Virus record (IMG/VR): IMGVR_UViG_3300042429_000905
Span: 1-52,233 of that record
Reading direction: 5' to 3' (one strand)
DNA: 52,233 bases
Origin: a virus
Shown here: piece after piece, positions 19,125 through 46,615 of the stretch
Numbering within the stretch: position 1 is the stretch's first letter
Layout of the letters: each line of letters opens with the position of its first letter
Notes under the pieces: generated by a model
The model's input: the letters and a program-made list of their open reading frames with translations, nothing else
What the model was told of the DNA's origin: nothing
Database searches by the model: none
Position numbers and translations under genes: made by a program

Positions 19125-20312
19125 ATGGCCTGCACTTCCTGCTCCTCCTCTTCTCCTGTCGTCTCTTACACGTCGTCCGGATGTGGCGCGGCGCTCGGAA
19201 CCACCGTCTCCTGCGTGATGCCTCGACGGGTCAGCACCCCCTCGGTAACCCCGGTGGCGTTCACATGGATTCCCTCCATGATTCAAGCCGAATCGGGCAA
19301 AGCAGTCATCGCCAACGGTGAAGACTTCAATGTCCTTGACTGCTCCTACGACGGCCCCGTTGTTTTCGATTCCGCTTCCGGCAAGATCTACGTCGGCACC
19401 AGCAGCGCCTCGACCGTGGTGGCCGACAACTTCGCCTGCGAGACGTCCACCCTCTACGGGTTCCCAGTCTATGCGCTTGACCCCGGTTGCCGGGAAGTCG
19501 GAGCCAACCCGGACCGCAACATGGCGGTCGTCCGCCCAGTGGAGAGCACCACCGGCATCCTTTTCGGTCACCGCCATACCTGCTCCTCCAACACCGCGAT
19601 GTCCGAGGAGATCAGCCCGGTGGAGATCGTTCCGGGACCCATGCCTGCCATGTTCCCGGACGACGTGAGTCTGCTCGCCTACCGCGTTGTCCCCTCGACT
19701 GACTCTTGCGCCCCGCAAACCGTCGAGTATTTCAACCACGACGGGGTGCCAGTGGTCGAGGAAGCCGTACTGGCCGACTTGGAGCAGACCAGAGCAGGTC
19801 TGGCGGACACCGCCACGGACAACTTCGGGTTTGCCATGTGGGACAAGATCAGCGGCAAATGGAAGCTCAAGCGCCTGACCAAAGCGTCTTTCCTCGATAT
19901 GATCACGGAGAACTCCGAGGCTATTCCGACGTTCACCCACTTAATTTCGCGAATCACGATGTATTTTCGCGCCAACACTGCGGCGCAAGGGTTTACCACC
20001 GTTCTCACTAATTACAACCTGACATCGGTAGTAGGGTACGACGCCAAGTACAGTTCCGTGCTAATCAGCGTCGAGTTGGCTAGTTCTGGAGGAACCCGGT
20101 CTACGCTGTACGAAATCAAAATCGGCGACCAGCAGTACGCGCTGATCGGAAGCGGTTCAACGGTGGGAGTGGACCGAGTCACCAACCAAGTGGTGGTGCC
20201 TATCCCGGCCAGCAAGCAGATCAAGATTGAGGCTACAGAGATTACCCCTAGTGTTACTGGAACTTACGGGTCCACCACCATATCGGTACTTCTGGACGCT
20301 TTCGTTATCTAA
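19125..20312 (+). CDS. Putative virion protein (395 aa)
   Basis: First gene of the rightward virion operon. The N-terminus is Cys/Ser-rich (MACTSCSSSSPVVSY, then SGCGAALGTTVSC), which recalls the Cys-rich end of the capsid protein. The rest is beta-rich with segments such as GPVVFDSASGKIYVGTS and a C-terminal domain ending SVLLDAFVI, without a membrane or signal segment. A structural beta-sandwich protein is likely, either a head-decoration or a tail part. I do not recognise a family. Start ATG lacks a Shine-Dalgarno. Confidence 0.65.
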   Translation: MACTSCSSSSPVVSYTSSGCGAALGTTVSCVMPRRVSTPSVTPVAFTWIPSMIQAESGKAVIANGEDFNVLDCSYDGPVVFDSASGKIYVGTSSASTVVADNFACETSTLYGFPVYALDPGCREVGANPDRNMAVVRPVESTTGILFGHRHTCSSNTAMSEEISPVEIVPGPMPAMFPDDVSLLAYRVVPSTDSCAPQTVEYFNHDGVPVVEEAVLADLEQTRAGLADTATDNFGFAMWDKISGKWKLKRLTKASFLDMITENSEAIPTFTHLISRITMYFRANTAAQGFTTVLTNYNLTSVVGYDAKYSSVLISVELASSGGTRSTLYEIKIGDQQYALIGSGSTVGVDRVTNQVVVPIPASKQIKIEATEITPSVTGTYGSTTISVLLDAFVI

Positions 20313-27346: not shown

Positions 27347-30300
27347 ACTGGTCCGAAGTCATAGAAAAACCCGGGTTCTCCGATCTTAGCACTTCCCAGC
27401 AGGACATTGTTCGGCAGCGGTGGGTGGATGAGGTCTACATGCCGCAGGCTGTCAAAGCCGGGTGGAATGAATCGGACATGTCCGCGCTGCGACAAGAACA
27501 AATTTCCAACTACGACAACGGCCAAGGGTACATCTCGTCCTTCGCCAGCGCCGCCGGACGTGGCGCGGCCTCCACCTTCACCTCCGCCGTGCAAGGTGTC
27601 GGTGCCCTCACCGGCAGCGAAGCCATTGAGCAAGCTGCCCGCGAGATGGACACGGCGGTCACGGAGAACCTGACGGTCAACCCGTCCATGGGGAAGACCA
27701 ACTTCACCGGCAACGTGCTTGGCAACGTGGCCGGGTTCCTCGCGCCCGGTATGGCAGGGATGAGGATCGGCAGAGCACTGGGTGCCGGGGCCGAGTTGGT
27801 AGGCGGAACTGCCGCCGAGGTCGCCGCCCAAACTGCCGCCCGAGCCGCCAGCGCCCAGTTGGGCGGGCGAATCGCCGCCAACACCACCATGCTTGCCTCG
27901 GGCGCAGGCAGCGGGGCGCAACAGGCCGACCGATACGGCATCGAAGGTCCGGAGCGCATGGGCATGGTCCTTGGTAACGCGGCCACCGAGATGCTTTCTG
28001 AGAACATCTTCGGCCTTGGTTCTGAGTTGAACACGATGAGCAGGCTCGCCGGACTTGGCGGACTTGGGGCAAACGCGGCAAGAAGGACCGGCGGGTTCCT
28101 CGCCGACGTGGGAGAGAACACGGTGGAAGAAATTGCTGCCAACGTGGGGTCCAACCTCGTCGCTTCAACCTTCGCTCCAGAAGGAGTGCAGACCCCCGGA
28201 ATACTTGAGAACAACGTCGAAGCAGGAGCTGGTGGTGCCATTGGCGGCGCGTTCTTCGGCGGCATCAACCTGATGCGTCCCCTTCCGCCCGTTGCTCCGA
28301 GACCTTCCGAGGCCATCAGCGCTGGGGTGGCCCAGCAAGCGGCAGCGGCTAACGATCCTGAAGCTGCGGCTGCACATCCGGGAGCCAAGTTCCAACCTAC
28401 CCCTGCTCCGCAAGTTCCGGGGGCTATTGCGTTTGATCCTACCATCGCTGACCCGTTGGCACCTGCTGCCGGGGCGCTACCTCCGCCACCCGGATTTGCA
28501 GAGACAACTCCTGCGGAGGCATTTCCAGCAGCCTTGCCGCAAGGGTTACCTGCGGCGGCGGCAGTTCCGGGAGCCGTGCCAGAAGCATTTCCTGCGGCGG
28601 AGACGCTACCCGCAGCGCCCGCTGGGGCACTACCTGCGGCAGAGGCGCTTCCCGAGTTGGACATCTCGCTTCAGGCGGGCGCGTACACGGGGGATCTGCT
28701 GCAAGGAAAAGAAGTCATAGGGGAGGGTTCCGAATCCACAGTTTACAGGGACGGAGACTCGGTCATCAAAGTGTCCGAGCCCTACAACGATAACTCAGAA
28801 GAAACATTCCAAGCGCGGGTGGACCGCGCAATGGACATTGATAATTTGATAGGGGATGGAACCTTGTCAGTCGAAGGATTTTACCGGTCGAAGAACGGCA
28901 CAAAAAACCCAGTGTTCCGCCAAACTTTTGCGGAAGGTCGGCCAGCTACCCGTGAGGAGATACAGGCATACATGGAGTCCCGTGGGTTCCAAGTTAAAGA
29001 AGCTGGAACTACCACGGACACGTTTGTAAAAGTATCCGATGGTGTGGAAATCACCGCATCCGATTTAGACGGAGCCAACGTGGTGGTAGGGACTGACGGC
29101 AAATTCCACGTAATTGACGCCGACTTGGTTCGGAGACCTGCACCAACCCAAACTGCGCCTGTGACGGCACCAGCGGGTGCGGTGCCGCCCGTCGGCGAGC
29201 CCCTCGTGGCAGGGCGTTTTACGGGAGTCACCGAAGCCCCTCCCACAGAGCTGTTCCACTCGGGAGAACTTCCTGAAGGGCTGGATAGCATCGACCCAAT
29301 GCGGACGACCGGAGCAAAACAAGGCAAACGTGGAAGAGACTTCGGTGGGTTCTACGCAGGGCCAGCCGAAACCGCCGCCAAATACAAAGGACCGAAAAAC
29401 CGGCTGGCTATTGCTCCGGGAGCGCGGGCCATGCGGGTCGCAGCCAGAGGAGCCATCGAAAGGCTCAGTCTCAAAGACCGGCAGGATCTCCTTGACCAAG
29501 GCGTGGACATTATTTCAGGCATCGACATCAGGGGTCTCCCTGAGTCCGTGATCCTTAACAAAGACGTGATCCTGTCGGTTGAGTTGGACACGCAAACGGC
29601 ACCAGCGGCGACACCTGTGACAGCACCAGCGGGTGCGGTCCCTCCCATGACGGAGCAGGCACCGCCCGTCGCGCCGCAAACGCCTGCGGTCCCGCCAGCG
29701 GCTCCAGCAGTGGCGTCACAAGGAGCCACCCCCAGCGACCTGATCGACCAGACTGGCAGGCTGACTGTCGAGGGTGCGCAGAGCATGATCGAGGCGATCC
29801 AATCGCTCGGCCTTACCACCGCTCCGTTCGTCATCAACAACACCGGAGTGGCTCCCGGCGTCATCGCCCCTCCTGTCGCAGGATCGACCACCCCGGTGGA
29901 CGGTAAGCCTGTCGTCTTTTTGAACCAAGAAAGGATGACTCTGGACACGCCGCTCCACGAGACGACCCATCTGCTCACCCCCACTTTATTTGCCGAGCAG
30001 CGGGCGCTTTACGATGTAGGAGCCGCGCTGCTGGCCGACTCCCCTTTGCGTCAGGCCATCGTCAACCGGTATGTCACCGAGGCTGGCATGACCATGACCG
30101 ACGAGCAGATCACCGAGGAGGCAATGGTGACCGGGTTGGCCAACAACGGAGCCGAGTGGCTCAGAGCCTACGCGGGCAACGCCAAAATGACACGGGCCAT
30201 CAAGGAGTTCCTCGCCAAGGTGCGCGAGTGGTTCGACGACCTGATGTACTCCAAGGGGTTTAACCCCAACATGAGTCTTGAACAGTTCTACAAGAAGGTG

Positions 30301-33300
30301 AACCGGCAGATTCTGGCTGGGAAGCTGCAACAGCGGGCGACGAACGCGCCGGTGCAGGCAATGTCACTGGCGGACATCGAGAAGCTGAAAAGCCCGACTG
30401 GCATCCCACTGGCGGCGTTTGCGTCCAGATACGCCAAGGACATCAAGCCAGCGGACAAAACCTTGGCAGATGCGGATCGGATCGCTTCCGAGAAGCTGAA
30501 CGAAGTAAACCAAAATCCGGGTTCGCTCCTTCCGACCGCAACCGCACAAGGGGTCAGGGAGTACCACACCCGCATTCTGATCCAGCCTGATGGTAAAACT
30601 TACGACCCCAACAACCTCAACCATGCGGATGCCACTCCGGAAGTACTAGCCATCTATCAAATGCGGCAGAACGGTTCCGCTGCGGCAATGGAGCAGCAGG
30701 AAGCGGACAGAGTAAATCAGATACGGCAGGACGACCTCAAGAAACTGACGGATTACCTGAAGGAAAACACGGATTACTCCCCATCCGAGGCGATGGTAAT
30801 GGTTCTCGCCGCCAGCAAATACGGAGTCAGGTCCAAGAAGACGGACGACGTGGTGACTTTTACCGCCGTGGAGATTACGGACAAAAACCAAGTGATGGTC
30901 CCGGTGGTAGACGGGACGATGGTCCCGCGCCTGCGCGATAAGATGGCCACTGGGATGTCCATGAAGAAAGCCTTGGAGGCTGCTTACACGGACGCCATGG
31001 ACGCTCAAGTCCAAGCCAACCGCGACAACAGGTACGAGGGACTGGTAAAATTCAGACAAAGTCAGAATTACGAGGACGCCGTGGCGCTGAACAAAGCCTG
31101 CGCCGGAACGCCATGGTGTACGGGAGCTTCTACCACCACGGCGGAGACCCACATCAACGGCGGAGACTTCTACGTGTATTTTGAGGGTGGCATTGCTCAA
31201 GTAGCGTTCCGTATGGACGGGAACGACAAACTGGCAGAGCCTCCACGGGGAAATTATGAAGGCCAAGCTCTTAACGAGCGGCAGGCAGAGATTGCAGATA
31301 AAGTTTTGCGCGGCGGGGAGATACCCGGAGGACAAGGATTTTTATCGGACAGGGACTTTATCAGCAAGGTCAAGAACGACCTTGCGGGTATGACCGACGA
31401 CGAAGTGTTTATGGGAATGTTCGCCAGCCGAAAGTCTGAAAACGGATATGGTCCAAACGCACGTAAATTCCCGGAATCGGTAAAAATCGCATTGGAAGGG
31501 CAATACAACCTCCGAGATCTTCGCGCAAAAGGGTACTACATGTTGAGCGACGACTACCCATCAACAGCGGTAGCTGTTTACAGTTTAATGGGACGACGTA
31601 CATTTTACCCAAATCTACGGCTTGTTGCACTGGACGTGTCCAACAACGAAGGGGAGCTAAACTTGCCCGCGCTTACAACGGTCGGAGGAAATGTATCTGG
31701 CAACGTAGGGGATATTAAGTTTCCCAATCTAATCACAATTGGCGGGGGGATGTCGTCCAACAAAGGGAGCATAAACCTACCCGCGCTTACCACAATTGGC
31801 GGAGAGGTGTCCAGCAACGAAAAAGACATAAACCTACCCGCGCTTACCACGGTCGGCAAGAGCGTGTGGTTTAACAAAGGGGACATTAACCTACCTGCCC
31901 TTACCACGATTGGTGCGTCTGCATCCTTTAACAATGGAGATTTAAATTTTCCAGAGCTAACTAAGGTTAGCGGATCTGTGTCTAACAACGCAGGTAATCT
32001 TAACTTCCCTACGCTGACCACGGTGGGCGGGGAAGTGGCTCGCAACACAAAAGATCTAAACTTTACTGCGCTTACCACTGTTGCAGGGGGCGTGTCCATT
32101 AACTATGGAGATCTGAACTTTCCTGCGCTTATCACTGTCGGAGATTCTGTAAACGACAACAATGGAAATCTGAATTTTCCAAAGTTAACCACAATTAGGG
32201 TGGACGTGTCCAGAAATACAAAAGATCTAAACTTCCCTGCGCTTACCACTGTCGGAGGGGATGTAGCCCACAACAGCGGCATTATCTTTCCCGCGCTGGC
32301 CACGGTTGGTGGGGGAGTTTACCGCAATAGTTGGAACCTTGACTTCCCCTCGCTGACCACGGTTGGTGAGGGCGTTTACAACAACGACGGAAACCTGAAC
32401 TTCCTTGCGCTTACAACGATTGGCGGAAACTTAACCAGCAACTTAGGAGAACTAAATTTTCCTTCGCTCACCACAGTTGGCGAAAAAATATCTCGCAACG
32501 TAAACGACCTTAATTTACCTAAGCTAACGACGGTCGGTACGGATGTGTCTAACAACGAAGGAAGTCTTAACTTCCCTGCACTTACCACGGTTGGCGGGTC
32601 AGTGTATCGCAACGAAAAAAATCTTAATTTCCCCAAGTTAACAAAGGTTGGTGCGGATGTATCCAGCAACACAGGGGATCTTAACATGCCCGTTCTTGCC
32701 ACAGTCGGCGGGATCGTGTCCAGAAACACCGGGGACCTTAACATGCCCCTGCTGGAGACGGAACCCGTTTTCACCGGTAAGTACGCCGAACAAACCGGCG
32801 CGTCGCAGGCTCCCGACACCCGCTTCTCCCTCGCCCCCGCCACTCCGACACCTCAGTCTGCGCGGCACGCAGCACTGGAAGCCAAGCACAACGACGGGAC
32901 CATCACCCCGGCGGAGACGGCGGAGGCGCAAGCTCTGGTGGACGAGGTGGCAAAAGCTGCCGGGTTTATAACTGGATTAAACCATTTTAGTAAATCTACT
33001 GGGTTTACCACTTTTGAACCCAAGAAAGCGCTTCACATCGGTCATCACTTCGGTCCTCTGCATCAAGCTGCGGCTATTGAAAGGCAAGTGACACGCGACG
33101 GCAGACAGGGCAAAATGTTTAACGTCGCACTAAGCGTCAAGAATCCACTCAGAGTAGCCGATGGAGGCGATTCGGTGTACAAGTCATCCGAAATAGAATT
33201 CAACGGGGTGACTTATTACAACCAAGGATGGGGGTATAACGTAGCGGACGCGCTTCAAGCAGCAGGTAAAACAAAAGCTGCCAAAGAGGTCGTGCAAATC

Positions 33301-36300
33301 ACCAAAAAGGTGAAATTCAACCCGCCAGTCATGGAGTCGGACGGCGACATGGAAGCGTCCGCAGAAATTAGGAAAGTCCTTCTGCGGGAAGGATTTGACT
33401 CGGTGGTTTATGAAAACATCGCGGAGGGGTCTTCGTCACCTTCAGATTTTTTCAAAATCGAAGCATCAGCCGGAATTCAGCCAACTGCTGCCCTGACCGG
33501 AAAGCCGCCTGAAGGAGTTGTTGTAAAAAAAGACGAGAATGGGGCATGGAACGCATTCAAGGGCGACAAATCGCAGTACGGAAGCCAAGCCAAAAGGACG
33601 AAGGAAGACGTCATACGGATGGCCGAACTTAATGAAATGGAGGATTCTGGAGTCAAGATACTTGAAGATTCAATCGCCGTACTTACTGCTGAACAGGTCA
33701 AATCCGCCGACCCCTTCACCGGCGTCCCGCTCGATCAGCGGTTTAACACCACATCCCCGGACATCCGTTTCTCCCTCGCCCCCGCCGCACCCAATCTTGT
33801 TAGTGTTTACAGAGGAGGAGCATCAAGGTCATCGACGTCTCCGATGGCGTATTATACGACCAGCCCCGACTACGCCAAGACTTACGGAGAAGATGTCGGA
33901 GAAAAGGTAATCGACGATAAGCGCGTATTAGATTTGACCGGGTTAGACACCCGCAGCGTTACGCTGTCATATCTCGTAAAGGAACTTCGCAAAGGTGGCG
34001 TAGAAGTTAGTTCCAGCGATTTCAAACAAGAAGGTGACTACCCACTGTGGTCTCATTTCCAGAGCGTCAGGCAAGGCGACTTTCTTGAAAAACTTAAAGC
34101 CGCCGGGTTTAACGGAGTAAAGTTTATGGAGTACGGCCCTCCGTCTGGGGAGTACGGAGCGCAACAAAAAGCAGAAGCGTACCTGTTGGATAAAGCTGAC
34201 ATTGCCACTCCAGACATCCGCTTCTCCCTCGCCCCCGCCGTCACCAAGCCTTCCAACGTGGCTCGCAACCAAGCGGGCACGCGGGTGCGCGTGCTGATGG
34301 AAAACCAGACCTACGAGGGGCAGACCATGGACGATGCCAGAGACCAAGCGCTCTCGCTTTACAACGACAACGTGGACAAGGGTTTTACAGTGGCCCAGCA
34401 CATGGCGTTCATTCAGGACTTGCGGACCAACGCCGGACGCAAGTACCAAGACATGACCTACGGCGCTTACGGCGGCATGTACGTGAGGGATTTGATGGAC
34501 GAGTCCACCAACCCTGAGACTGACCCAATGTCCCAAGCGTTCGCCAAGCGCGAGGCCGACCGGGTCGCCGCCATGATGGCAGAAGAAGCCGCCATTGGTG
34601 GTCGTCAAGCCAAGGCGTTTGACCTCTACGACCGCATTGCCAACACCCCCGCGATGACGGTGCGGCAGTACGAGCAACTGCTGCCCTTCGACGGCAAGCA
34701 GAACGTCAAGAACGACTTCGACAAAGCCGCCACGACCGTCAGAGAGGAGATGGAGGGTCTAGGCAACGAGGCGATCAACACCGCCCCCGAGGACGCCATG
34801 ACGTCCATGCTCGGCCAGCGGGTAGCCGCCGTGGTGAGGGGGGAAGAAACCTCCAACGTCGGCGAGGTGGTCCTCGACGAGGTCAAACCTGCCGAGACGA
34901 TGGAGGATCTCCCGGCGTGGTTTTTGGAGGGGCAAGCTACCCTCGGAGCAGAACTGAGCGCCGACATCGACGAAATCACTACTTTACTCGCGTTTAAAGC
35001 CTACCTGAAACGCAAGGACGGGACTTACTCGCTCACCCCGGAGGAGCGCAGCGCCCAACTTGCGGCCATGATCAAACAGATGGAGGACAGCGGTCAGACC
35101 GTTGCCGACGCCGTCGCCGCCACCGACAAGCGCCTCGCCGAGTTGACCGGCAAGTTCAAAAAGCCTCAACCAAAAGCCAAACCGAAAGCTGCACCGATCC
35201 CGAAAGAGGCTCCTCCCGAGGGGGAAATCCAAGACATCGTCGCCGCCCGGATCAACCGCTTGCTCGACAAGATCGTCAAGCCATCCACCAGTCCCGCCAA
35301 AACCCGGACGGACAAAGAGATCCTTGTGGACGCCATCGTCTCCACCATGATGTCCAAGGCTGGGCTCCCCGCCGACCTCAAAGCTGGCGGCGACAACGTC
35401 ACCCTCGCCTTCGGCCTCGTGGTGGCCAACCCGCAACTGGCAGCGCAGTCGGTGCAGGCCGTTTACGACCTGCTCCAGTCTGATCCTGCATCTGCCAACA
35501 TCACCAGTTCCGACAAGATCCGTGGGTTCATGCAGATGCTGACCGGCCAGTCGTTCGCCGACGGCAAAGCCTACGGCGAGAAGCAACTCAACACGGTGCT
35601 GAAGAACGAACTGAAGCGCCTCAAGATCAGCGTCAACGACGTGGCCATGGACGCCGCTCTGACCGGCAAGACGGTCGAGCAACTGGAAGCCTCGCTGCGT
35701 GATCCTAGCCGCGAACTGAGCAAGGTCCTTTCCCCCGACGCCCTCAACAAGGTCGTGGCCGCAGTGACCGGAGAGTTCCGCAAGAGCGCTGCCGAACGGG
35801 CTGACGGGATTCGCAGCCAGCAGGCGCAGGCCCGCGCCCTTCAGGACATGATCGACGAGAAGAACATGGTCATCGCCGACTTCAAAGCCGCCCGTGCTAA
35901 GAAAAAGAAGGCTGCGGAAGACGCCAAAAAGAAGACCAAGGAGTATGAGGACCTCTGGACACGGCTCAAAAACGGAGAGGACAAAGCTGCCATCCGGCAA
36001 GCCGAGAGCCAAGTCCGTGCCGCGCAGGCTGCGGACATGAAAGCGGAAGCCGACTGGGTAGCCCACCAGTCCGCTGAATCTGAAGCAATCAGCATGGAGG
36101 CGCAACGCTCGTCCCGCGATTTGATGGAGCAACAGAATAAACTCAATGCCACGGACCGCAAATTCCGGCTCGCAATTAACCGCAAAAACCGCAAGGCGAT
36201 GCGCCGCAAGCTGGCCAAGCGTGGCGGGTTTATGATTCCTCTCGACCAATCCGAGGCCGAGGAACTGCTCGACCAGAAGCCCAAGACCGTACTGCAATAC

Positions 36301-38814
36301 CTCGCCCGCGAGTATGGATTCAGCCTTGCAGACATCATCGGCATGGCCCGCGATCAGGACCGCCAGACCACCCTCGAAGCGAAGGTCGGCAATCTCGCTC
36401 AAGCCCTCGGCCTGACTAAAGAGCAGGCCGACAAATTCATGGGGCCGGTCATTGCCGAGGCGATGAAGTACATCTCCGAAGCCCGTAAAAAAGAGGTGTC
36501 CCAGCGCATCAACCGGGTGCTCACGCCTGTCATCGGCAAGAAGAAGACGCAGAAGACCGAGGCCGAGAAGCTCATCAAGCTGGCAGAGATGGGGGGCCTG
36601 ACTGCGGACAACGTGGAGAAACTGCTGCTCAACAGCAAGGACGCCAAGGAGTTCACTGATGAGTTCCGGCAGGAGTTGATCGACCTGATCGCCCAAGCCA
36701 ATGACCCTCACCTGACAGAGGAGACCAGGGACATCATGAAAGGGAAGTTCCTCGACGCGATTTCCGCCGCCCGTGGAATCACCGCCCTCGGCTTGCTGGG
36801 AGAATGGACCATGTCCAACATCTTCATGAGCATCCTATCGACGTTCAAAGTGAACTTCATCTGGGGGTTCATCAAGGCTGCGAGCGACAGTGGTATCTTC
36901 ATCACAATTTCTGGTCCGGCAGCGGCCCGAGCCGACGCTATCGCCAAGGGAGTGACTCCGGCCCCCAGCCTCGCTGTCGCCAAAGTTCTCTTCCGGCAGT
37001 GGCTTCGCGGCTACGCCGTCAACATGCAGCATAACGCCTCCTTCATGTGGTCTGAGGGCAGGGCCAAGGACGAGAGTGACTACACCTCCCAGTTTGCCAA
37101 CACCGGGATGGAACTGTTGTCGCGCATCAAAGACGCGCAGATCCTGTGGTCCAAGGACGGCAAAGCGCTGCCACAGAGCGCACAGAAAGTCGTCAAGGCC
37201 ATGGCGGCGTTCGGCAAATACACCCGCCGGACCATGGTGGCATCTGACTTGCTCAACCGGACCTCCGCCTACGAAATGTCCAAGGTCCTCGAAGCCGTCA
37301 AGGTGATGCAGGCCAAGGGCGGAGCGGCCAGTACGGCCACCATCCAGCGGGAGATTGACGACGCACTTTACGGCGGCAGTTTCAAGGATGCCTTCGCCAA
37401 GGCTAACAAGCAGGCCGACGACGAGATCGCCGAGAAGAGACTAGGCACGCCTGAGCGTGGCATCCGCGTGGGGCGGATCATGGACGAGATGCTGGGCAAG
37501 AACCTCGGGTTGAACACAAAGCAGATGCAGGAAGTCTTGGAGGACGCCCGCGAGAACGCCAAACGCTGGTCGCTCGCCAACCAGACCGAAGGTATTTTCG
37601 GGGAGGTCAGCAACCTGATGCTGGCGGCTACCCGGAAAATTCCTGCCCTGAAGTTCCTCTTGCCCGCCATCCGGATGCCTATTGCGGCGTTTTCGCAGAC
37701 GCTTGATTGGATGCCTTACGGATTCCTCCGTCTCTACGCCATCAACAAAAATAACAACGAGACCGAGAGCTTTACCAATTATCTCTTAAACAGTAAGAAT
37801 GAGTACGGCAACTGGAACAAGCCCGTGGGCGGAGTCCCTGCCTACCGGAAGACCGACCTCATGGCCAAGGCGTCCATTGGATCGCTGATTATGCTCGGGC
37901 TGTTTATCAAAACGGCTATTAGCTTTGACGAGGACGAGGACGAGGCTGAGTTTTACATCACGGGATTGGGTCCGTCCGATCCAGCGGAGAACAAGGCATG
38001 GCGGGAGAAGGGCAATGCACCGTTCACCTTCCGCTTTAACGGCGGCACCGGCTTCCGCTTCCAAGAGTCCCCGTTCTACGGGATGCTGGCCCCCATCGCC
38101 GCATGGTCCGACGCCAACCGCTACGGCAAACCCGGCGAGGCCGAGTCCGACCGCATAGCCTACGCGATTGGCAAGACGGTCTCGGGCTTCCAAGAAGCGG
38201 TGGTCATGAAGAACCTCTCTGACATTCTGGCGGGTGGCTCGTCCTACTCTGCGGACGGTCAGTTGCGCAACTGGTCCAAAGCCAGTTCCCGGCTGGCGTC
38301 CAACGTCCTGATGCCTCGCCTTGGCGGTGAGATCAACACCATCCTCTACGGACCGCAGGACCAGAAAGCCCTCGGCTGGGGAGGTCGGGCGCTGGCCAAC
38401 GTGCCGTTCGTCCCGTCCTTCAATAACAAACCCGCACAGGATTTCCTCGGGCGCGAGATCCACACCAAGCGGGAAGGGATGCTCGGAGAGATCTATCCGG
38501 CGCTGGCCCACCGGGTTATCGCCCCGTCACTCGACGATCCTATCCTGAACTTCGTCGCCAAGATGAGCCCCAACTTCCTCGCCACCACCCGGCGCTTCAA
38601 AGACGGCACGCGGGTGATGGACAATTACGAGTTCGTCCGCAAATGGAACGCCGCCGCCGGGGTCAAGATCCGCGAGTACCTCACCCCTGAGCGGATGGCG
38701 TCTTACGAGCGGAAGCTGGCCAAGGACAAGCCAGATGCCCAGACCGAGTTTAACGTCGAGATCAACAAGATCAGGACTGCGGCGCTTCGGAAGTTTTCCG
38801 AGGTGCAGTTTTAG
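27343..38814 (+). CDS. Giant polyvalent ejection protein (3823 aa)
   Basis: The largest gene, and third of the ejection set. Domains in order: Gly/Ala-rich hydrophobic helices (66-310); Ala/Pro linker with LPAA repeats (313-443); Kinase-PolyVal-like module (446-599, EGSESTVYRDG, VIDADL); ADP-ribosyltransferase-like module 1 (625-750); zinc metalloprotease with HETTH (872-876); a WCTG module (about 1256); 19-residue solenoid repeats (1438-1806); ADP-ribosyltransferase-like modules 2 (1873-2046) and 3 (2150-2286); three DIRFSLAPA linkers (1825, 2140, 2291); coiled coil (2820-2966); LPD38-like C-terminus with a membrane segment near 3511. Polyvalent proteins of this sort enter the host with the DNA and attack host targets. 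Individual activities are inferred from motifs. Confidence 0.85.
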   Translation: MNWSEVIEKPGFSDLSTSQQDIVRQRWVDEVYMPQAVKAGWNESDMSALRQEQISNYDNGQGYISSFASAAGRGAASTFTSAVQGVGALTGSEAIEQAAREMDTAVTENLTVNPSMGKTNFTGNVLGNVAGFLAPGMAGMRIGRALGAGAELVGGTAAEVAAQTAARAASAQLGGRIAANTTMLASGAGSGAQQADRYGIEGPERMGMVLGNAATEMLSENIFGLGSELNTMSRLAGLGGLGANAARRTGGFLADVGENTVEEIAANVGSNLVASTFAPEGVQTPGILENNVEAGAGGAIGGAFFGGINLMRPLPPVAPRPSEAISAGVAQQAAAANDPEAAAAHPGAKFQPTPAPQVPGAIAFDPTIADPLAPAAGALPPPPGFAETTPAEAFPAALPQGLPAAAAVPGAVPEAFPAAETLPAAPAGALPAAEALPELDISLQAGAYTGDLLQGKEVIGEGSESTVYRDGDSVIKVSEPYNDNSEETFQARVDRAMDIDNLIGDGTLSVEGFYRSKNGTKNPVFRQTFAEGRPATREEIQAYMESRGFQVKEAGTTTDTFVKVSDGVEITASDLDGANVVVGTDGKFHVIDADLVRRPAPTQTAPVTAPAGAVPPVGEPLVAGRFTGVTEAPPTELFHSGELPEGLDSIDPMRTTGAKQGKRGRDFGGFYAGPAETAAKYKGPKNRLAIAPGARAMRVAARGAIERLSLKDRQDLLDQGVDIISGIDIRGLPESVILNKDVILSVELDTQTAPAATPVTAPAGAVPPMTEQAPPVAPQTPAVPPAAPAVASQGATPSDLIDQTGRLTVEGAQSMIEAIQSLGLTTAPFVINNTGVAPGVIAPPVAGSTTPVDGKPVVFLNQERMTLDTPLHETTHLLTPTLFAEQRALYDVGAALLADSPLRQAIVNRYVTEAGMTMTDEQITEEAMVTGLANNGAEWLRAYAGNAKMTRAIKEFLAKVREWFDDLMYSKGFNPNMSLEQFYKKVNRQILAGKLQQRATNAPVQAMSLADIEKLKSPTGIPLAAFASRYAKDIKPADKTLADADRIASEKLNEVNQNPGSLLPTATAQGVREYHTRILIQPDGKTYDPNNLNHADATPEVLAIYQMRQNGSAAAMEQQEADRVNQIRQDDLKKLTDYLKENTDYSPSEAMVMVLAASKYGVRSKKTDDVVTFTAVEITDKNQVMVPVVDGTMVPRLRDKMATGMSMKKALEAAYTDAMDAQVQANRDNRYEGLVKFRQSQNYEDAVALNKACAGTPWCTGASTTTAETHINGGDFYVYFEGGIAQVAFRMDGNDKLAEPPRGNYEGQALNERQAEIADKVLRGGEIPGGQGFLSDRDFISKVKNDLAGMTDDEVFMGMFASRKSENGYGPNARKFPESVKIALEGQYNLRDLRAKGYYMLSDDYPSTAVAVYSLMGRRTFYPNLRLVALDVSNNEGELNLPALTTVGGNVSGNVGDIKFPNLITIGGGMSSNKGSINLPALTTIGGEVSSNEKDINLPALTTVGKSVWFNKGDINLPALTTIGASASFNNGDLNFPELTKVSGSVSNNAGNLNFPTLTTVGGEVARNTKDLNFTALTTVAGGVSINYGDLNFPALITVGDSVNDNNGNLNFPKLTTIRVDVSRNTKDLNFPALTTVGGDVAHNSGIIFPALATVGGGVYRNSWNLDFPSLTTVGEGVYNNDGNLNFLALTTIGGNLTSNLGELNFPSLTTVGEKISRNVNDLNLPKLTTVGTDVSNNEGSLNFPALTTVGGSVYRNEKNLNFPKLTKVGADVSSNTGDLNMPVLATVGGIVSRNTGDLNMPLLETEPVFTGKYAEQTGASQAPDTRFSLAPATPTPQSARHAALEAKHNDGTITPAETAEAQALVDEVAKAAGFITGLNHFSKSTGFTTFEPKKALHIGHHFGPLHQAAAIERQVTRDGRQGKMFNVALSVKNPLRVADGGDSVYKSSEIEFNGVTYYNQGWGYNVADALQAAGKTKAAKEVVQITKKVKFNPPVMESDGDMEASAEIRKVLLREGFDSVVYENIAEGSSSPSDFFKIEASAGIQPTAALTGKPPEGVVVKKDENGAWNAFKGDKSQYGSQAKRTKEDVIRMAELNEMEDSGVKILEDSIAVLTAEQVKSADPFTGVPLDQRFNTTSPDIRFSLAPAAPNLVSVYRGGASRSSTSPMAYYTTSPDYAKTYGEDVGEKVIDDKRVLDLTGLDTRSVTLSYLVKELRKGGVEVSSSDFKQEGDYPLWSHFQSVRQGDFLEKLKAAGFNGVKFMEYGPPSGEYGAQQKAEAYLLDKADIATPDIRFSLAPAVTKPSNVARNQAGTRVRVLMENQTYEGQTMDDARDQALSLYNDNVDKGFTVAQHMAFIQDLRTNAGRKYQDMTYGAYGGMYVRDLMDESTNPETDPMSQAFAKREADRVAAMMAEEAAIGGRQAKAFDLYDRIANTPAMTVRQYEQLLPFDGKQNVKNDFDKAATTVREEMEGLGNEAINTAPEDAMTSMLGQRVAAVVRGEETSNVGEVVLDEVKPAETMEDLPAWFLEGQATLGAELSADIDEITTLLAFKAYLKRKDGTYSLTPEERSAQLAAMIKQMEDSGQTVADAVAATDKRLAELTGKFKKPQPKAKPKAAPIPKEAPPEGEIQDIVAARINRLLDKIVKPSTSPAKTRTDKEILVDAIVSTMMSKAGLPADLKAGGDNVTLAFGLVVANPQLAAQSVQAVYDLLQSDPASANITSSDKIRGFMQMLTGQSFADGKAYGEKQLNTVLKNELKRLKISVNDVAMDAALTGKTVEQLEASLRDPSRELSKVLSPDALNKVVAAVTGEFRKSAAERADGIRSQQAQARALQDMIDEKNMVIADFKAARAKKKKAAEDAKKKTKEYEDLWTRLKNGEDKAAIRQAESQVRAAQAADMKAEADWVAHQSAESEAISMEAQRSSRDLMEQQNKLNATDRKFRLAINRKNRKAMRRKLAKRGGFMIPLDQSEAEELLDQKPKTVLQYLAREYGFSLADIIGMARDQDRQTTLEAKVGNLAQALGLTKEQADKFMGPVIAEAMKYISEARKKEVSQRINRVLTPVIGKKKTQKTEAEKLIKLAEMGGLTADNVEKLLLNSKDAKEFTDEFRQELIDLIAQANDPHLTEETRDIMKGKFLDAISAARGITALGLLGEWTMSNIFMSILSTFKVNFIWGFIKAASDSGIFITISGPAAARADAIAKGVTPAPSLAVAKVLFRQWLRGYAVNMQHNASFMWSEGRAKDESDYTSQFANTGMELLSRIKDAQILWSKDGKALPQSAQKVVKAMAAFGKYTRRTMVASDLLNRTSAYEMSKVLEAVKVMQAKGGAASTATIQREIDDALYGGSFKDAFAKANKQADDEIAEKRLGTPERGIRVGRIMDEMLGKNLGLNTKQMQEVLEDARENAKRWSLANQTEGIFGEVSNLMLAATRKIPALKFLLPAIRMPIAAFSQTLDWMPYGFLRLYAINKNNNETESFTNYLLNSKNEYGNWNKPVGGVPAYRKTDLMAKASIGSLIMLGLFIKTAISFDEDEDEAEFYITGLGPSDPAENKAWREKGNAPFTFRFNGGTGFRFQESPFYGMLAPIAAWSDANRYGKPGEAESDRIAYAIGKTVSGFQEAVVMKNLSDILAGGSSYSADGQLRNWSKASSRLASNVLMPRLGGEINTILYGPQDQKALGWGGRALANVPFVPSFNNKPAQDFLGREIHTKREGMLGEIYPALAHRVIAPSLDDPILNFVAKMSPNFLATTRRFKDGTRVMDNYEFVRKWNAAAGVKIREYLTPERMASYERKLAKDKPDAQTEFNVEINKIRTAALRKFSEVQF
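31654..32760 (+). repeat. 19-residue solenoid (leucine-rich-like) repeats within the giant protein
   Basis: Nineteen repeats of a 57-bp/19-residue unit with consensus DLNFPALTTVGGSVSNNxG, plus a partial twentieth. One copy lacks one residue. The LxF-P-L-V pattern with Asn ladder fits a leucine-rich-repeat-like or beta-solenoid domain. The DNA here is AT-richer than its neighbours, as if acquired or diverged by repeat turnover. Confidence 0.9.
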
Positions 38815-40476: not shown

Positions 40477-40743
40477 TTAGACGGGTGCGTAACCTGAGCG
40501 GAGTTCAGGCTCCTTGGAAGCTGCCTGAAGCGAGGAGGTAACGATGCCCTCAATCTGCGCCAATGCCTTCAGCATCTCGCCGTCGGTCGGGTTGTTCAGG
40601 CGGAAGTAAGCCGCCAGCCGCAGTGTGTAGACACACAGTGGACGTCGGAATTCCGGCTTGAGGGACAGGAGGAACATCTCCGGACTCGCCACAAAGGCGT
40701 CCTCAGAGATTAGCGGGGGCAAAGGCGGCGTTGTCGGCGTCAT
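40477..40743 (-). CDS. Small hypothetical protein between portal and scaffold (88 aa)
   Basis: Begins MTPTTPPLPPLISEDAF and has a helical core (RRPLCVYTLRLAAYFRLN, GEMLKALAQIEGIVTSSL). Overlaps the 3' end of the portal gene by 41 bases if the first ATG is used. An alternative start at 40677 (MFLLSLKPEF), with no overlap, is also possible. Possibly a small head assembly protein. No known family. Confidence 0.6.
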   Translation of the reverse strand: MTPTTPPLPPLISEDAFVASPEMFLLSLKPEFRRPLCVYTLRLAAYFRLNNPTDGEMLKALAQIEGIVTSSLQAASKEPELRSGYAPV

Positions 40744-43105
40744 TCAGGTCAATTTCCATGTCCTGATACATCTTGGCCCGCTGAGTGGCAAGCGTTTTCT
40801 GCTGCGCGTCCATTGCTCGCTCGGTGTTCGCCATGCTGCGCATCTTCATCATGTCATCAATCTCTTTGTGCTTCCACTTGTTCGCTCCGTCTTGTTGCAA
40901 GCGTTGCTGATTGGCCATCTTGATCTGCGCATCCATCTTCTCCTTCTCGGTCATGGCACCCTCTTGTTGAGGCTGTTGCACCGGCACCGACTGGATGGCT
41001 TGACCCATCTGCTGGATCTGCTCCATGGCCGGTTTGGCAAGCTGCTCAGGCAGACGCTGGACGTGGGCGGCGGCGTAGGCCAGCACCGCCATGACGCCGA
41101 CGACCTCGGACGGGGAGACGATCCCTGCGGAGGTGGCGGCTTTGATGTGACCCTGCGCGACTTCCGACGCGATCTTGGAGTGAAGCATCGGATCGTCCAT
41201 CGGTTGAGGAGGCAAAGGTTGGCCGGTGACAAACGCAGCGGTGACGGCGTACATCGCGTTCTTCTGTTGCGACTGATCCTGCTCCTCCTGCGGAGTGGTG
41301 AGTTGCTCGGCGACCACGTCGCCCAAGGTTGCCCGCAGAATCTCCTTGGCCAAAAAAGGCAGGATGGAAGGCATCACTGGACCCACGGTCTGCATCAACC
41401 CGGTGTTGACGGCGATGGACTGCTGGCGGGTCAACGATCCTGCCAAGCGCCGCGCCTTGAACTTCCATCGGTCGGCGTCCCACTCGTCCTCGTGGATGCC
41501 ATACTCCATCTTCAGGATCATGCGCAGCCGCGCCGCGTCTTGATAACAAGGGAACTCACGTTTTTGTTTCGGCCAGTGGCGGCACAGGGTGGTGGCTACC
41601 ATCTCGATGTACTTGTCGAGCGTCAGCAGCCAGTTCAGGCTGCGGCGGGACGAGGTGATCTGCTTGCCTGCCAACTCGGCCTGCGCCTGCGCGGCGAACT
41701 CCTGCTGTGTCCCGCCGAACGTGCCGGTGGCGTTGGCCGTGGAGTCGGCGGAGACGCTGTTGTCCAGCATCCGGATGGCACCCATGGCGGCGTTCATGCC
41801 AGTCATGGAGTTGTTCTTCTCCATCGGCCTGATCCCGTCCGGGAACGCCTGTCCGCTGCGGAGCCCACCCCGCTGGAGTTGGTCCATGTACTCCTGCCCG
41901 ACACCAGGCTTGACCGCCCACGTCACTTGGTTGGCGAAGGACAGACCGCCAATCAAGTCGGTTAGCAAACCCTCCATCACCGCGAGCTTGGGCATGGCAG
42001 TCTTGCCGGTGCCACGGACTTCCCGCAGTTTCTGGTCGCCGCTGATGGCGGCGTCGTCCACATGGAGGATCAGACACTCCTCCACCGAGCGGAACAATGA
42101 CGGCATGAAGAAGATGAGGCGTTCGTTGCGGTCGCTGGCTTCCTTCTGCTCGCCTGTCTTGCTGCGGCGCTTGGCCTCAAAGCGGTCGAGTGCCGTCTCG
42201 TTATCGTAGCCGCCGACCCGCAAGGACTTCAGGCGCATGTTGTACTCGATCTTCTCCTCCACGGCCATTTCGCCTCCGAAACGGCTGACGCAGTAAAGGT
42301 CAATCTCCTCGTGGCCACCGTAACGAGGGTCGTTCTTGGTCAGGTTTCCGTTCTTTCTGAAATACCAGTAAACATCTACCGGCTCGGCAAAGCAGTCAGT
42401 GGAGGCGTCAATCGCAAGCCACGCGTCTGGATCGTAGTCGCTCATCCACTCCTCGGTGTTGCGCTCGCCGTACTTCTCCGCCTCAGAGGCCATGATCCAC
42501 AGCTTGAGCTTCTCCAGTCCTTCCTTCTGCCAGCCGTACTTGCCACTGGAGGCTACCTTGAGCCGCTCCTCGATGTCACGCAGGCTGATCTTCTCCGCGA
42601 ACGCCCACTCCCGGAACTCTCCGTCCAACACGTCGATCCCGGCGTCCTTGGGGTGGATCAAGCGGCCCGACTTGGGGAAGCACTCGTTGGGAGACTTGCG
42701 GAACAGATAGGCCCGCCCAGTCACAGTCGAGCGTCCGGCGGCGTTTTGCAAAATAGGCATGACGCGGGACATCACCGCTGCGTTCAGTGCGGCGTTGAAC
42801 TGCGTCTGCACCTGCATGGTGCGGGCAGGCATCTTGACCGCTGGCTGGTTCAGGAAGCAGTGGAAGACACCGGGCTCCATCAACAGCGGGTCCAGCAGAA
42901 CCCCCATCTCCTTGCTCATGAATGCCTGCGCGTATCCCAGCGGGACGATGTCGTCTTCGCAGGTGTCGTCGTCCGAAGGGGGAGGACCACCATTGGCGTA
43001 GGCTTCGATCTTTCGCTCCAGATCCCACGAGGGGAACAGTTCGCGGCGGAATTTATCTACGGAGGTGACGATCTTGTCCGCGTCGATCTGCTGGAGTTTT
43101 GTCAT
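40703..43105 (-). CDS. Portal protein
   Basis: An 800-residue protein with start at 43105 (MTKLQQIDADKIVTS), chosen because the ATG overlaps the stop of the upstream gene. Portal-like segments include GYDNETALDRFEAKRR, LLTDLIGGLSFANQVTWAVKPG, ALNAAVMSRVMPILQNAAGRS and a C-terminal helical, Gln-rich tail with MTEKEKMDAQIKMANQQR. The size and tail resemble large podovirus portals. It would form the dodecameric vertex ring. Located on the opposite strand from the capsid gene, which is unusual. Confidence rests on size, composition and scaffold neighbour. Confidence 0.75.
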   Translation of the reverse strand: MTKLQQIDADKIVTSVDKFRRELFPSWDLERKIEAYANGGPPPSDDDTCEDDIVPLGYAQAFMSKEMGVLLDPLLMEPGVFHCFLNQPAVKMPARTMQVQTQFNAALNAAVMSRVMPILQNAAGRSTVTGRAYLFRKSPNECFPKSGRLIHPKDAGIDVLDGEFREWAFAEKISLRDIEERLKVASSGKYGWQKEGLEKLKLWIMASEAEKYGERNTEEWMSDYDPDAWLAIDASTDCFAEPVDVYWYFRKNGNLTKNDPRYGGHEEIDLYCVSRFGGEMAVEEKIEYNMRLKSLRVGGYDNETALDRFEAKRRSKTGEQKEASDRNERLIFFMPSLFRSVEECLILHVDDAAISGDQKLREVRGTGKTAMPKLAVMEGLLTDLIGGLSFANQVTWAVKPGVGQEYMDQLQRGGLRSGQAFPDGIRPMEKNNSMTGMNAAMGAIRMLDNSVSADSTANATGTFGGTQQEFAAQAQAELAGKQITSSRRSLNWLLTLDKYIEMVATTLCRHWPKQKREFPCYQDAARLRMILKMEYGIHEDEWDADRWKFKARRLAGSLTRQQSIAVNTGLMQTVGPVMPSILPFLAKEILRATLGDVVAEQLTTPQEEQDQSQQKNAMYAVTAAFVTGQPLPPQPMDDPMLHSKIASEVAQGHIKAATSAGIVSPSEVVGVMAVLAYAAAHVQRLPEQLAKPAMEQIQQMGQAIQSVPVQQPQQEGAMTEKEKMDAQIKMANQQRLQQDGANKWKHKEIDDMMKMRSMANTERAMDAQQKTLATQRAKMYQDMEIDLNDADNAAFAPANL

Positions 43106-43725
43106 GTGGGGAGTGTCCAATTAAATTTTGCAGCCACAATGGCGAACGGCGTGGGCGACTTGCCATCCCGCGTCTCGTTGTGGATGTCCACCAGCCAGTG
43201 TCTGGCTTGTTGTAAAGTAAGGGAAGCAGGCAGCGGGCTGTTCATCAAGGCTACTGACCAATGGGACGCGCAGACGATACAACCGTCAGGCCCGTTAATC
43301 AAGGTTGTGAGGTTGCTTATAATATCGGCCAGTGCCGCTCGTGCATCCACGTCGCTCAAACCGTTATACAGCGCCCGGTTGGCAGACTCCCACGCCTCGC
43401 GTGCCCACGGCAGAATTGCCTTTGGAGCGCCGCTCTGGAAGCCTTTGCAAAGGCGAGGTTGCGGCGAGCACCACTGCTCGATGGAGATCATTTTGATTTC
43501 ATCGGTCAACGCGTTGGAAGTCATCCCGTTGGCAGCGAGGAAGTCAATCATCGACTGCCACGCCGCCTTGGCGTTCTTGGGGCGGTACGGGTGCATCGCC
43601 CAAATGCCGGAGAGATGCTGGGCAGACTCTGGCAGGACGAGAATCTTCCACCCTGATTCCGGGGCAGCAAGTACCGCTCCCCGCAATACGAAGTCGTTCA
43701 TTTTACACACTGCTAATACGCACAT
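43102..43725 (-). CDS. Erv/Alr-like putative thiol-oxidase fold protein
   Basis: A 207-residue protein (start at 43725, or 43701 if the second Met is used). Its C-terminal third reads GCIVCASHWS (C149, C152), then ARHWLVDIHNETRDGKSPTPF with the HN pair at about 182-183. A CxxC followed by H-x-x-W and later by W-x-x-D-x-HN-x-x-R is the arrangement of Erv1/Alr sulfhydryl oxidases. Such a protein could oxidise thiols in capsid proteins, of which one here is Cys-rich at its C-terminus. The first 140 residues have no known domain. Fold assignment is tentative. Confidence 0.45.
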   Translation of the reverse strand: MCVLAVCKMNDFVLRGAVLAAPESGWKILVLPESAQHLSGIWAMHPYRPKNAKAAWQSMIDFLAANGMTSNALTDEIKMISIEQWCSPQPRLCKGFQSGAPKAILPWAREAWESANRALYNGLSDVDARAALADIISNLTTLINGPDGCIVCASHWSVALMNSPLPASLTLQQARHWLVDIHNETRDGKSPTPFAIVAAKFNWTLPT

Positions 43726-43727
43726 AA

Positions 43728-44393
43728 TTAATTAAACGCCAAAATGTTGAGAGCAGAGTCTGCGGCCTTTTTTGCCGCAGTTTTAGCCGCGATGTATTTT
43801 TTGCGGCCATCCATCATTTTTGCAAGGGACTCCGCAGAAATCGGGCGTCCAGCCCTCACCTTACTCATTTTTGCACGAGTTTCATCTGAACAAACACGCC
43901 CTGCGCTGGAGGCCCCTATTTTCAGGCGCGTCTCCAACGAAGCTGTTTTTCCTGTATTAGCATTCTTAATTTTCATTCGCGTTTCCAGAGTGTGGGTACT
44001 CCCTATTTTTGCCGCACTCATTTTTTCACGCGTTTCTGCGGACGCCACTTTACCGGTGGAGGCTAAACTCATCCGCTTACGTGTTTCCAGAGTGCGCTTT
44101 GTTCGCCCCAACACGCCCCCTCCGTCTTTGTTCAGAAGGTTCGCTCCCAGAAATCTGAGATACATAATCAAGAAAATCTCTTCTTCCTCCCATTCCGCGA
44201 TGGGGGTTTCGCTGAGAACCTCCATTTCGGGTTTCAATCCGCGTGATTTTAGGTCGCTAATCCACGCCGCTTTTTCCACGTTGTCCGTTTTACAGCAGTG
44301 TTCGTTGAAACGCTGTTTCGGATTATTCGTCGCGCCAACCCAACGGACAAGCCCCGTGCTCGGATCTGATAAAAGATAAATGAATTTGTCCAT
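43728..44393 (-). CDS. GIY-YIG homing endonuclease with NUMOD3 repeats
   Basis: A 221-residue free-standing endonuclease. The start MDKFIYLLSDP at 44393 matches the beginning of the GIY-YIG domain: IYLL, then VRWVGATNNPKQRFNEH, with catalytic R/H and a later conserved Glu (EWEEEEIFLI). After residue 95 there are about six NUMOD3-type repeats (ETRxKMSxAxxG), which bind DNA. It lies alone between the Erv-like gene and the capsid gene, presumably inserted between head genes by homing. AT-richer than its neighbours, which fits transfer. Confidence 0.92.
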   Translation of the reverse strand: MDKFIYLLSDPSTGLVRWVGATNNPKQRFNEHCCKTDNVEKAAWISDLKSRGLKPEMEVLSETPIAEWEEEEIFLIMYLRFLGANLLNKDGGGVLGRTKRTLETRKRMSLASTGKVASAETREKMSAAKIGSTHTLETRMKIKNANTGKTASLETRLKIGASSAGRVCSDETRAKMSKVRAGRPISAESLAKMMDGRKKYIAAKTAAKKAADSALNILAFN

Positions 44394-44593: not shown

Positions 44594-46615
44594 ATGGCCA
44601 CTATCAATATCGGTCCAGGAGGCGTCGCTATTTCAGCCGCCGACTCCTGCTCCAGCAATGACCTCCTCGCCTCCCAAGGCAACCCCCTCGGCGCTCTGAT
44701 TGAGTCCGTTGAGGTGCAGCAGATCACCGGCATTAAGCGGATGATGTATCCCTCTCTCGCAGAGTCGATTGATCGTCACATGCCGATGCGTCCTTCCAGT
44801 GCCACCCGAATCAACGGTGTCACCGAGTACCACACCGCTGTCGGTTACGACGGTCTGCTCAACCTTGGTGGGTTGATCGACATCACCCCCGGTTCCGGCG
44901 ACTACACCAACACGGTGAGCCTGCTCAACTCCGATGGGACCCGCCGCAACAAGGGAATCACCTCCGACGCCAACACCAACGCCGAAGCCTGTAACCCTGC
45001 CATTGATGGTGCGGTGCCAAACCTCGGGCGTGAAGGCTACGGTCGTCGTGCTTACACCCGCCGCCTGCCGATCCCTCCGATCTGTTTTGGTGACTGGACT
45101 CACGGCAAAGAAGAGTTCTACGCCCACTTCACCGCCATTCACGACTCCGTGAAGAACGGTTTGATGGCGCAGTTCGCTGCTGACCAATACCGCTGGCAGA
45201 TCAGCAAGGCCCGCTTCAACGCAGCCCCGATCCAAGTCGCCCAAGGCAGTGGCAAGGCCAAGCTCCCCGTGAGCGGAGACCTCTACACCGCCGCCAACTT
45301 TGGCCGGATGCCCCAGCACTGGGGTTCTGCTGACTGGATGGCCGGAATGCTCCGTGAGTCCGAGATCGACCCCCGCGAGAACCTGCGCGTCGAACTGCCT
45401 GCTTCCATCTTTGTGAAGTACAAGGAACAGCTTGCCTCCATCGTCGGAGTCAACTTCTACGAAGGTGCCGGTAACATCACCCGCGCCCTCAACGCCTTCG
45501 ACGTCAGCATCCAGAACGAGACCCTGATCTACCAAGACAAGGTCACTGGCCGCAAGATCACCTTCGTCGCCACGGACAAGCCCGTGTACGTCGAAGTGGA
45601 AGACACCGGCACCGCTGGCGGTCAATGGCAGTTCCAAGAGCCTTGGATCTGGCGCAACTCCGAGACCTCCGGTCAGATCATGCCCCGGCACAATCCGAAG
45701 TATGGGGTCGCTTGCAGCGTGCCTAACAAGGTGCTTGCCGCTATCGTCTCCGTGTCTGCCGATGGTGCCACTCCTTTCTACAAGGAGCCCCTCCCCGGCA
45801 ACAACCCGGCGGCTGGCCTGCGTGCCCTGATCCAGAAGTATGGTGCCACCGGCGAACGCCCAGTGAACACCAACCTCGCGGAGATCTACCCAAGCTCCAT
45901 CACCACCACCATCCTGACCGGCGCTGAGTTCCAACTCTACGTCGCCAGCGTGCAGAACCAACGCTACCGCGATGCAGGCTGGGGTTGCGACGTGATGAGC
46001 AACATCAAAAACACCTGGATGGGTGGTTTTGCCGAGATCAGCGCCGTATTTGGTGAGCGTCGTCCCCGTGAGGTCGTCAACTTCATGTTGAAGGTTCCTC
46101 AAGTCGATTACTGCTACGACTTGGCCGTGGATTGCGCCGACACCCCTGACATCCCTGCTGCTCTCGACTTCGAGCCAGCCACAGCGGAAGTTGGTAAACA
46201 AGAGGTGCCGATCCCTGCTCCTGTTGCTGCGGTTCCTGAAGCGGCTGGTAAAGTGATCGTGATTGGCCAGTCCACCACGATCCTTGCTGACTGCAACAAC
46301 CTCCGCACCGTGAGCATTCCGTTCCGCCGGATCGGTGGAACCGCTGGTGCCATCAGCATCACCATCGCCGGTACCCCAAGCACCCACGCGAACACCCTGC
46401 CTACCACGGTGTCCTTCGCGGACGGCGTGACCGAAGCAGTGGCCACGTTCACCATCGACGCCTGGCAGGCCACGGACGCGACTTCCGAGTCGTTCGTCCT
46501 GACCTTCAGCGGTGCCTCCCTCGATGCGGGCTCCTACACCACCCGGACCATCCGCATCCGCGCCAACACCACCTGCTCGCTCGACGAGACGGCTGGCGAC
46601 TGCGCTTCCTGCTAA
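44594..46615 (+). CDS. Major capsid protein with C-terminal Ig/Calx-beta-like domain
   Basis: A 673-residue protein. Residues 1 to about 500 have the features of a HK97-like shell protein (IDRHMPMRPSSATRINGV, KEQLASIVGVNFYEGAG, SVSADGATPFYKEPLPGN). From about 560 there is a beta-sandwich (VSIPFRRIGGTAGAISITIAG, TTVSFADGVTEAVATFTIDA, SFVLTFSGASLDAGSY) typical of Calx-beta or Ig-like decoration domains that bind outside surfaces. The last residues are Cys-rich (CSLDETAGDCASC). Called capsid because it is large, next to portal/scaffold and begins a structural block. Followed by a terminator at 46634. Confidence 0.75.
   Translation: MATINIGPGGVAISAADSCSSNDLLASQGNPLGALIESVEVQQITGIKRMMYPSLAESIDRHMPMRPSSATRINGVTEYHTAVGYDGLLNLGGLIDITPGSGDYTNTVSLLNSDGTRRNKGITSDANTNAEACNPAIDGAVPNLGREGYGRRAYTRRLPIPPICFGDWTHGKEEFYAHFTAIHDSVKNGLMAQFAADQYRWQISKARFNAAPIQVAQGSGKAKLPVSGDLYTAANFGRMPQHWGSADWMAGMLRESEIDPRENLRVELPASIFVKYKEQLASIVGVNFYEGAGNITRALNAFDVSIQNETLIYQDKVTGRKITFVATDKPVYVEVEDTGTAGGQWQFQEPWIWRNSETSGQIMPRHNPKYGVACSVPNKVLAAIVSVSADGATPFYKEPLPGNNPAAGLRALIQKYGATGERPVNTNLAEIYPSSITTTILTGAEFQLYVASVQNQRYRDAGWGCDVMSNIKNTWMGGFAEISAVFGERRPREVVNFMLKVPQVDYCYDLAVDCADTPDIPAALDFEPATAEVGKQEVPIPAPVAAVPEAAGKVIVIGQSTTILADCNNLRTVSIPFRRIGGTAGAISITIAGTPSTHANTLPTTVSFADGVTEAVATFTIDAWQATDATSESFVLTFSGASLDAGSYTTRTIRIRANTTCSLDETAGDCASC

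Follow-up and report, generated by a model that had tools for sequence, protein, structure and literature searches.

A divergent Erv/ALR-like protein encoded ahead of a portal-labelled gene in a bacteriophage genome

Does a bacteriophage carry a sulfhydryl oxidase of the Erv/ALR type? Erv enzymes are described as seemingly present in all eukaryotes and as strongly conserved in the large DNA viruses of eukaryotes (PMC3509050). Among bacteria, Erv1/Alr has been reported in few groups, including Verrucomicrobiaceae and Pirellula (PMC10598087), and a bacterial source of a phage gene is therefore possible. Among the open-licence PMC papers that our searches listed, no title or abstract opening reports an Erv/ALR enzyme in a bacteriophage. 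The question is raised by IMG/VR record IMGVR_UViG_3300042429_000905, analysed here as a single window of 52,233 nucleotides. An initial annotation, made from the letters alone, had pointed to a CxxC protein in a presumed head operon and proposed that it may introduce disulfides into the virion.

Gene, strand and relatives

The gene lies at 43102..43725 on the minus strand and encodes a protein of 207 residues with six cysteines. Both motifs that had drawn attention to it are indeed present in this frame: GCIVCASHW spans residues 148-156 and ARHWLVDIHNETR residues 174-186. Downstream, the ATG of a portal-labelled gene (40703..43105, minus strand, 800 residues) overlaps the stop codon of the Erv-like gene within the tetranucleotide ATGA. 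Directly upstream, the gene of a GIY-YIG/NUMOD3 homing endonuclease (43728..44393, minus strand) stops 2 nt before the Erv-like ATG. A GIY-YIG homing endonuclease gene also occupies this site in the relative L001 (4405-4998); the two proteins share only 39% identity, with flanking DNA about 97% identical, and one endonuclease seems to have taken the place of another.

The plus strand of 43102-43725 contains stops in the frame read. A longer plus-strand ORF, at 42311-43735, was rejected as a real gene: it also runs antisense to the portal-labelled gene, which differs from that of a relative by 75 synonymous changes and a single amino-acid change. This ORF and the minus frame have third codon positions in common, and the antisense frame of the Erv-like gene gives a dN/dS of 0.077 against L001, so that dN/dS alone leaves the strand unfixed. 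Our assignment to the minus strand follows from the Pfam match described below and from the way the ORF overlaps the portal-labelled gene.

IMG/VR was scanned with the Erv-like, portal-labelled, capsid-labelled, helicase and TerL-like proteins and with two Erv alignments. The Erv-like gene occurs in only two other records, 3300042358_000052 and 3300042445_002485, with proteins 99% identical; a further record, 3300034022_000863, is matched by the helicase only and has no Erv-like gene. Both relatives share the same changed codons and therefore count as one further sequence. Between the window and L001 the gene shows 11 synonymous and four amino-acid-changing differences (dN/dS 0.11), and all six cysteines are kept. 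A DNA pattern for C-x2-C-[AS]-x-H-x21-W-x4-H-N with fixed spacing matched six stretches in all of IMG/VR: the two relatives, three stretches with internal stop codons and one open frame that shows, by eye, no other Erv likeness. No relative of the protein was found in the genome contigs scanned, nor by tblastn among 50,697 phage records and 72,556 plasmids. The Erv-like protein is thus real and conserved within a small clade, represented by effectively one further sequence.

Likeness to Erv/ALR enzymes

Evr1_Alr (PF04777) is the sole Pfam match of the protein at E-values up to 10, with 14.5 bits (E 0.048) for the whole protein and 15.8 bits (E 0.018) for its last 109 residues. Every Erv score of the 207-residue protein stays under the curated family cut-offs, which for Evr1_Alr is 27.6 bits. 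The top PDB match by sequence is Arabidopsis Erv1 (2hj3; E 0.29 and 0.13). When all six frames of the window were scanned with PF04777 as the only query, the Erv-like ORF alone was matched (15.6 bits, E 7.9e-4). The same scan of 16 records matched three, the window and its two relatives, with no match in 12 unrelated virus or phage records or in a kindred record (G003) without this gene region. Among 14 well-known control genomes, six had a match at E up to 10 and none a match above the cut-off.

With an HMM built from three Erv cores, the Erv-like ORF ranks first among 402 six-frame segments, with 9.4 bits against 4.4 for the runner-up. The real domain scores 10.8 bits, which none of 20,000 domain shuffles reached, 15,678 of these having a reported score. 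Results with hhalign are weaker (probability 7%, P 0.0048; one shuffle in 300 as high). The independence of all these figures is overstated, because the idea came from reading the same residues.

The likeness resides in the C-terminal domain, residues 96-207 (43105..43440, minus strand), to which correspond the Pfam match of E 0.018, obtained on a slightly shorter stretch, and the helices of a low-confidence model. Its roughly 100 last residues read R-x2-W ... C-x2-C-A-x-H-W ... W-x4-H-N ... F ... W, a series that follows the order of Erv/ALR proteins and comes close to their spacing. Arabidopsis Erv1 (2hj3), yeast Erv1 (4e0h) and yeast Erv2 (1jr8) share with it R-x2-W, C-x2-C-[AS]-x-[HD]-aromatic and W-x4-H-N, as well as a Phe or Tyr 12 residues after the His and, in the Erv1 types, a Trp nine residues further; 37 residues instead of 35 separate the first Trp from the first Cys. 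The candidate FAD-proximal redox pair C149-x-x-C152 (43270..43281, minus strand) is followed by A153-x-H155-W156, and thus shows the helix-3 feature of a CxxC with a subsequent His or Asp and an aromatic residue; W156 stands where yeast Erv1 has F137. The candidate helix-4 site for the FAD adenine, W177-x4-H182-N183, lies at 43177..43197 on the minus strand, and appears in both the Pfam and PDB alignments.

In yeast Erv1, 13 residues contribute to FAD binding (PMC4721541). Six of them are identical in the phage protein (R109, W112, C152, H182, F194 and W203), as against 5 of the 84 other aligned positions, in an alignment that allowed one gap of two residues and one of a single residue. This enrichment is significant (Fisher p 0.0006, or 0.009 with the two anchor residues left out). 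Outside the CxxC...HN segment, the flank residues R109, W112, F194 and W203 fall at the expected places more often than in shuffles (p 0.006 with an ungapped C-terminal side, 0.025 if a shift of 2 is permitted); taken by itself, the N-terminal flank does not reach significance (p 0.12).

Several hallmarks are absent. A helix-1 Trp and His (W-x3-H) and a helix-4 His with two Asn are described as Erv/ALR features (PMC3616962): in the phage protein W112 is present with N116 in place of the His, and H182 and N183 are present with R186 in place of the second Asn. Within the K-x2-F/Y element between helices 4 and 5, F194 is at the exact spacing and the counterpart of Lys171 is displaced, K189 standing five residues before F194 and not three. 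Tyr128, and with it the Tyr-Pro before the CxxC, and Arg182 have no counterpart, the phage protein having D147 in the first case and, before its last Trp, N202 in the second. Cys159, Val165 and Gly91 are likewise unmatched (V179, T185 and A108).

These residues bear on the stronger of two rival explanations: the protein would belong to the head module, be specific to the phage and have another fold, zinc would be bound by C149, C152 and a His (H155, H176 or H182), and the Erv likeness would be due to chance. The identities are indeed limited to few residues, several FAD residues being missing, and Pfam-wide E-values of 0.02-0.05 are of chance size over a few dozen proteins; the helicase of the window has itself a probably spurious SKI match at E 0.036. 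Yet no zinc-domain family occurs among the matches up to E 10, Evr1_Alr is silent in the unrelated records, and a zinc site would give no reason to expect that F194 and W203, which lie outside the HMM match, agree as well. We give this explanation a minority chance of being right.

Altogether, the sequence comparisons indicate a resemblance to Erv/ALR that is beyond chance under a test named beforehand, yet short of the family cut-off and of several hallmarks, and which does not amount to proof. The closeness to the Erv1/Alr pattern noted at the outset is thereby retained as regards the best Pfam and PDB matches and the FAD-contact residues, and qualified by the missing ones.

Structure prediction, proposed initially as a check of the helical Erv fold, gave pLDDT values below 50 for both models. 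The AlphaFold model of the whole protein, from one sequence (pLDDT 43.7), has helices at 100-120, 125-143, 148-151/155-161, 171-186 and 193-200, which is the Erv order. In the model of the domain alone, from two sequences (pLDDT 48.4), the CxxC stretch is unstructured and outside any helix. Foldseek and VIA-align with these two models returned no Erv among the matches listed. At this level of confidence, neither the fold nor the fold searches count for or against an Erv protein.

A possible phage sulfhydryl oxidase

Our best explanation, with a probability of about one half, is that the ORF encodes a very divergent bacteriophage sulfhydryl oxidase of the Erv/ALR type; its fold, FAD binding, activity and shuttle are inferred. 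By alignment, residues 106-203 would form a five-helix FAD-binding unit. The redox pair would be C149-x-x-C152, where helix 3 begins, with H155 and W156 beside it; W112 on helix 1 would lie against the flavin, and H182-N183 on helix 4, together with F194 and W203, would be at the adenine. Upstream of the domain, C86-x6-C93 (43447..43470, minus strand), both of whose cysteines are kept in the relatives, is a possible shuttle disulfide. A second extra pair, C2-x4-C7 (43705..43722, minus strand), requires the first ATG as start. Substrate thiols would reduce C86/C93, and perhaps C2/C7, from which electrons would pass to C149-C152, then to FAD and finally to oxygen or another acceptor.

The second rival keeps the descent and removes the chemistry: a true Erv descendant would have given up flavin chemistry and would now serve the portal-labelled protein as a partner in structure or assembly. 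The loss of the helix-1 His, the second Asn, the Tyr and the Arg speaks for it, as do the precedent of a pseudo-Erv domain in QSOX (PMC3616962) and a faster amino-acid change (dN/dS 0.110, compared to 0.004 for the portal-labelled and 0.017 for the capsid-labelled protein), but the retained CxxC, W112, H155 and H182 would be needless in a dead domain and the comparison covers effectively one other sequence, and we consider it improbable.

An active oxidase would have parallels among known Ervs. Extra Cys pairs outside the core are shared with Erv1/ALR; they are common in Ervs, and viral members are known to carry extra domains as well as such pairs around the core (PMC3509050). Mimivirus R596 and baculovirus Ac92 are likewise viral and have additional domain-sized segments (PMC3509050); beyond the family motif, neither shows a direct sequence match to the phage protein. 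The extra pair of R596 (PMC3509050) follows helix 5 as CX9C, whereas the phage pairs precede helix 1. With the Erv domain of QSOX the phage protein shares the His and aromatic residue after the CxxC and the His-Asn of helix 4 (PMC3616962); unlike QSOX, it has no thioredoxin domain and no C-terminal CxxC. From Erv1/ALR proteins in general it differs in being phage-encoded and in its scores below the cut-off.

Virion proteins and phage lineage

What would such an enzyme oxidize? Its translation would immediately precede that of the portal-labelled protein, and this position suggests that it may work at a late stage, with virion proteins as substrates. The head operon assumed initially does not hold with respect to the capsid: the capsid-labelled gene (44594..46615) is divergent, on the plus strand, and therefore outside the operon of the Erv-like gene. 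The presumed head genes switch strand between the portal-labelled and capsid-labelled genes.

The idea of Cys-rich structural termini survives in part. The capsid-labelled protein ends in CSLDETAGDCASC, with C660, C669 and C672 in a C-x8-C-x2-C arrangement, that is, three cysteines in its last 13 residues (p 0.0009, a mild and post hoc figure). A 395-residue protein encoded at 19125..20312 on the plus strand starts with MACTSCSSSS and has four cysteines, C3, C6, C20 and C30, within its first 30 residues (p 0.003, equally mild and post hoc). All of these terminal cysteines are kept in the relatives compared. A general richness in cysteine is rejected: the portal-labelled, capsid-labelled and 19125 proteins contain 28 in 1868 residues (1.50%), and five replication proteins 53 in 2941 (1.80%). 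DUF6945, also considered as a link, has no match in the window.

The labels 'head operon', 'capsid' and 'first virion gene' receive no support from family searches, nor do the names capsid and portal from phage or PDB searches; for the portal-labelled protein, Pfam, PHROGs, NCBIfam and the PDB gave no noteworthy match. As cysteine content is not raised and these searches do not support the capsid and portal names, the virion role is a suggestion from position, with indirect support from the ATGA shared with the portal-labelled gene and from the conserved cysteines at two termini. We regard it as unlikely that the Erv-like protein puts disulfides into the virion. The fuller scenario, in which an Erv-type FAD-dependent oxidase of the phage itself, with its shuttle pair, is made just ahead of the portal and forms disulfides of the particle in the reducing cytoplasm of a bacterium, like nucleocytoplasmic large DNA viruses in that of eukaryotes, seems rather unlikely to us. 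If true, a phage Erv in a head module would mean that an unrelated virus has arrived at the same answer to disulfide formation in a reducing cytoplasm, and would bear on the origin of viral Ervs.

These searches show an isolated phage lineage. None of the 50,697 phage records matches its presumed structural proteins or a relative's TerL-like protein, while the polymerase and helicase find many matches there, at below 60% identity. The presumed head genes match no Pfam or NCBIfam family and no PHROGs family convincingly.

Two further proteins of the window are of note for their cysteines. A 252-residue protein encoded at 296-1054 on the minus strand has seven, and matches DUF7227 weakly (E 0.0041, under the cut-off). 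A polyvalent protein of 3823 residues (27343-38814), with Kinase-PolyVal and toastrack domains, has only two cysteines, six residues apart, and a set of five proteins that includes it totals two in 5320 residues. The injected RNA polymerase of N4-like phages is Cys-free (PMC3915230), and because of this parallel the polyvalent protein may be ejected into the host.
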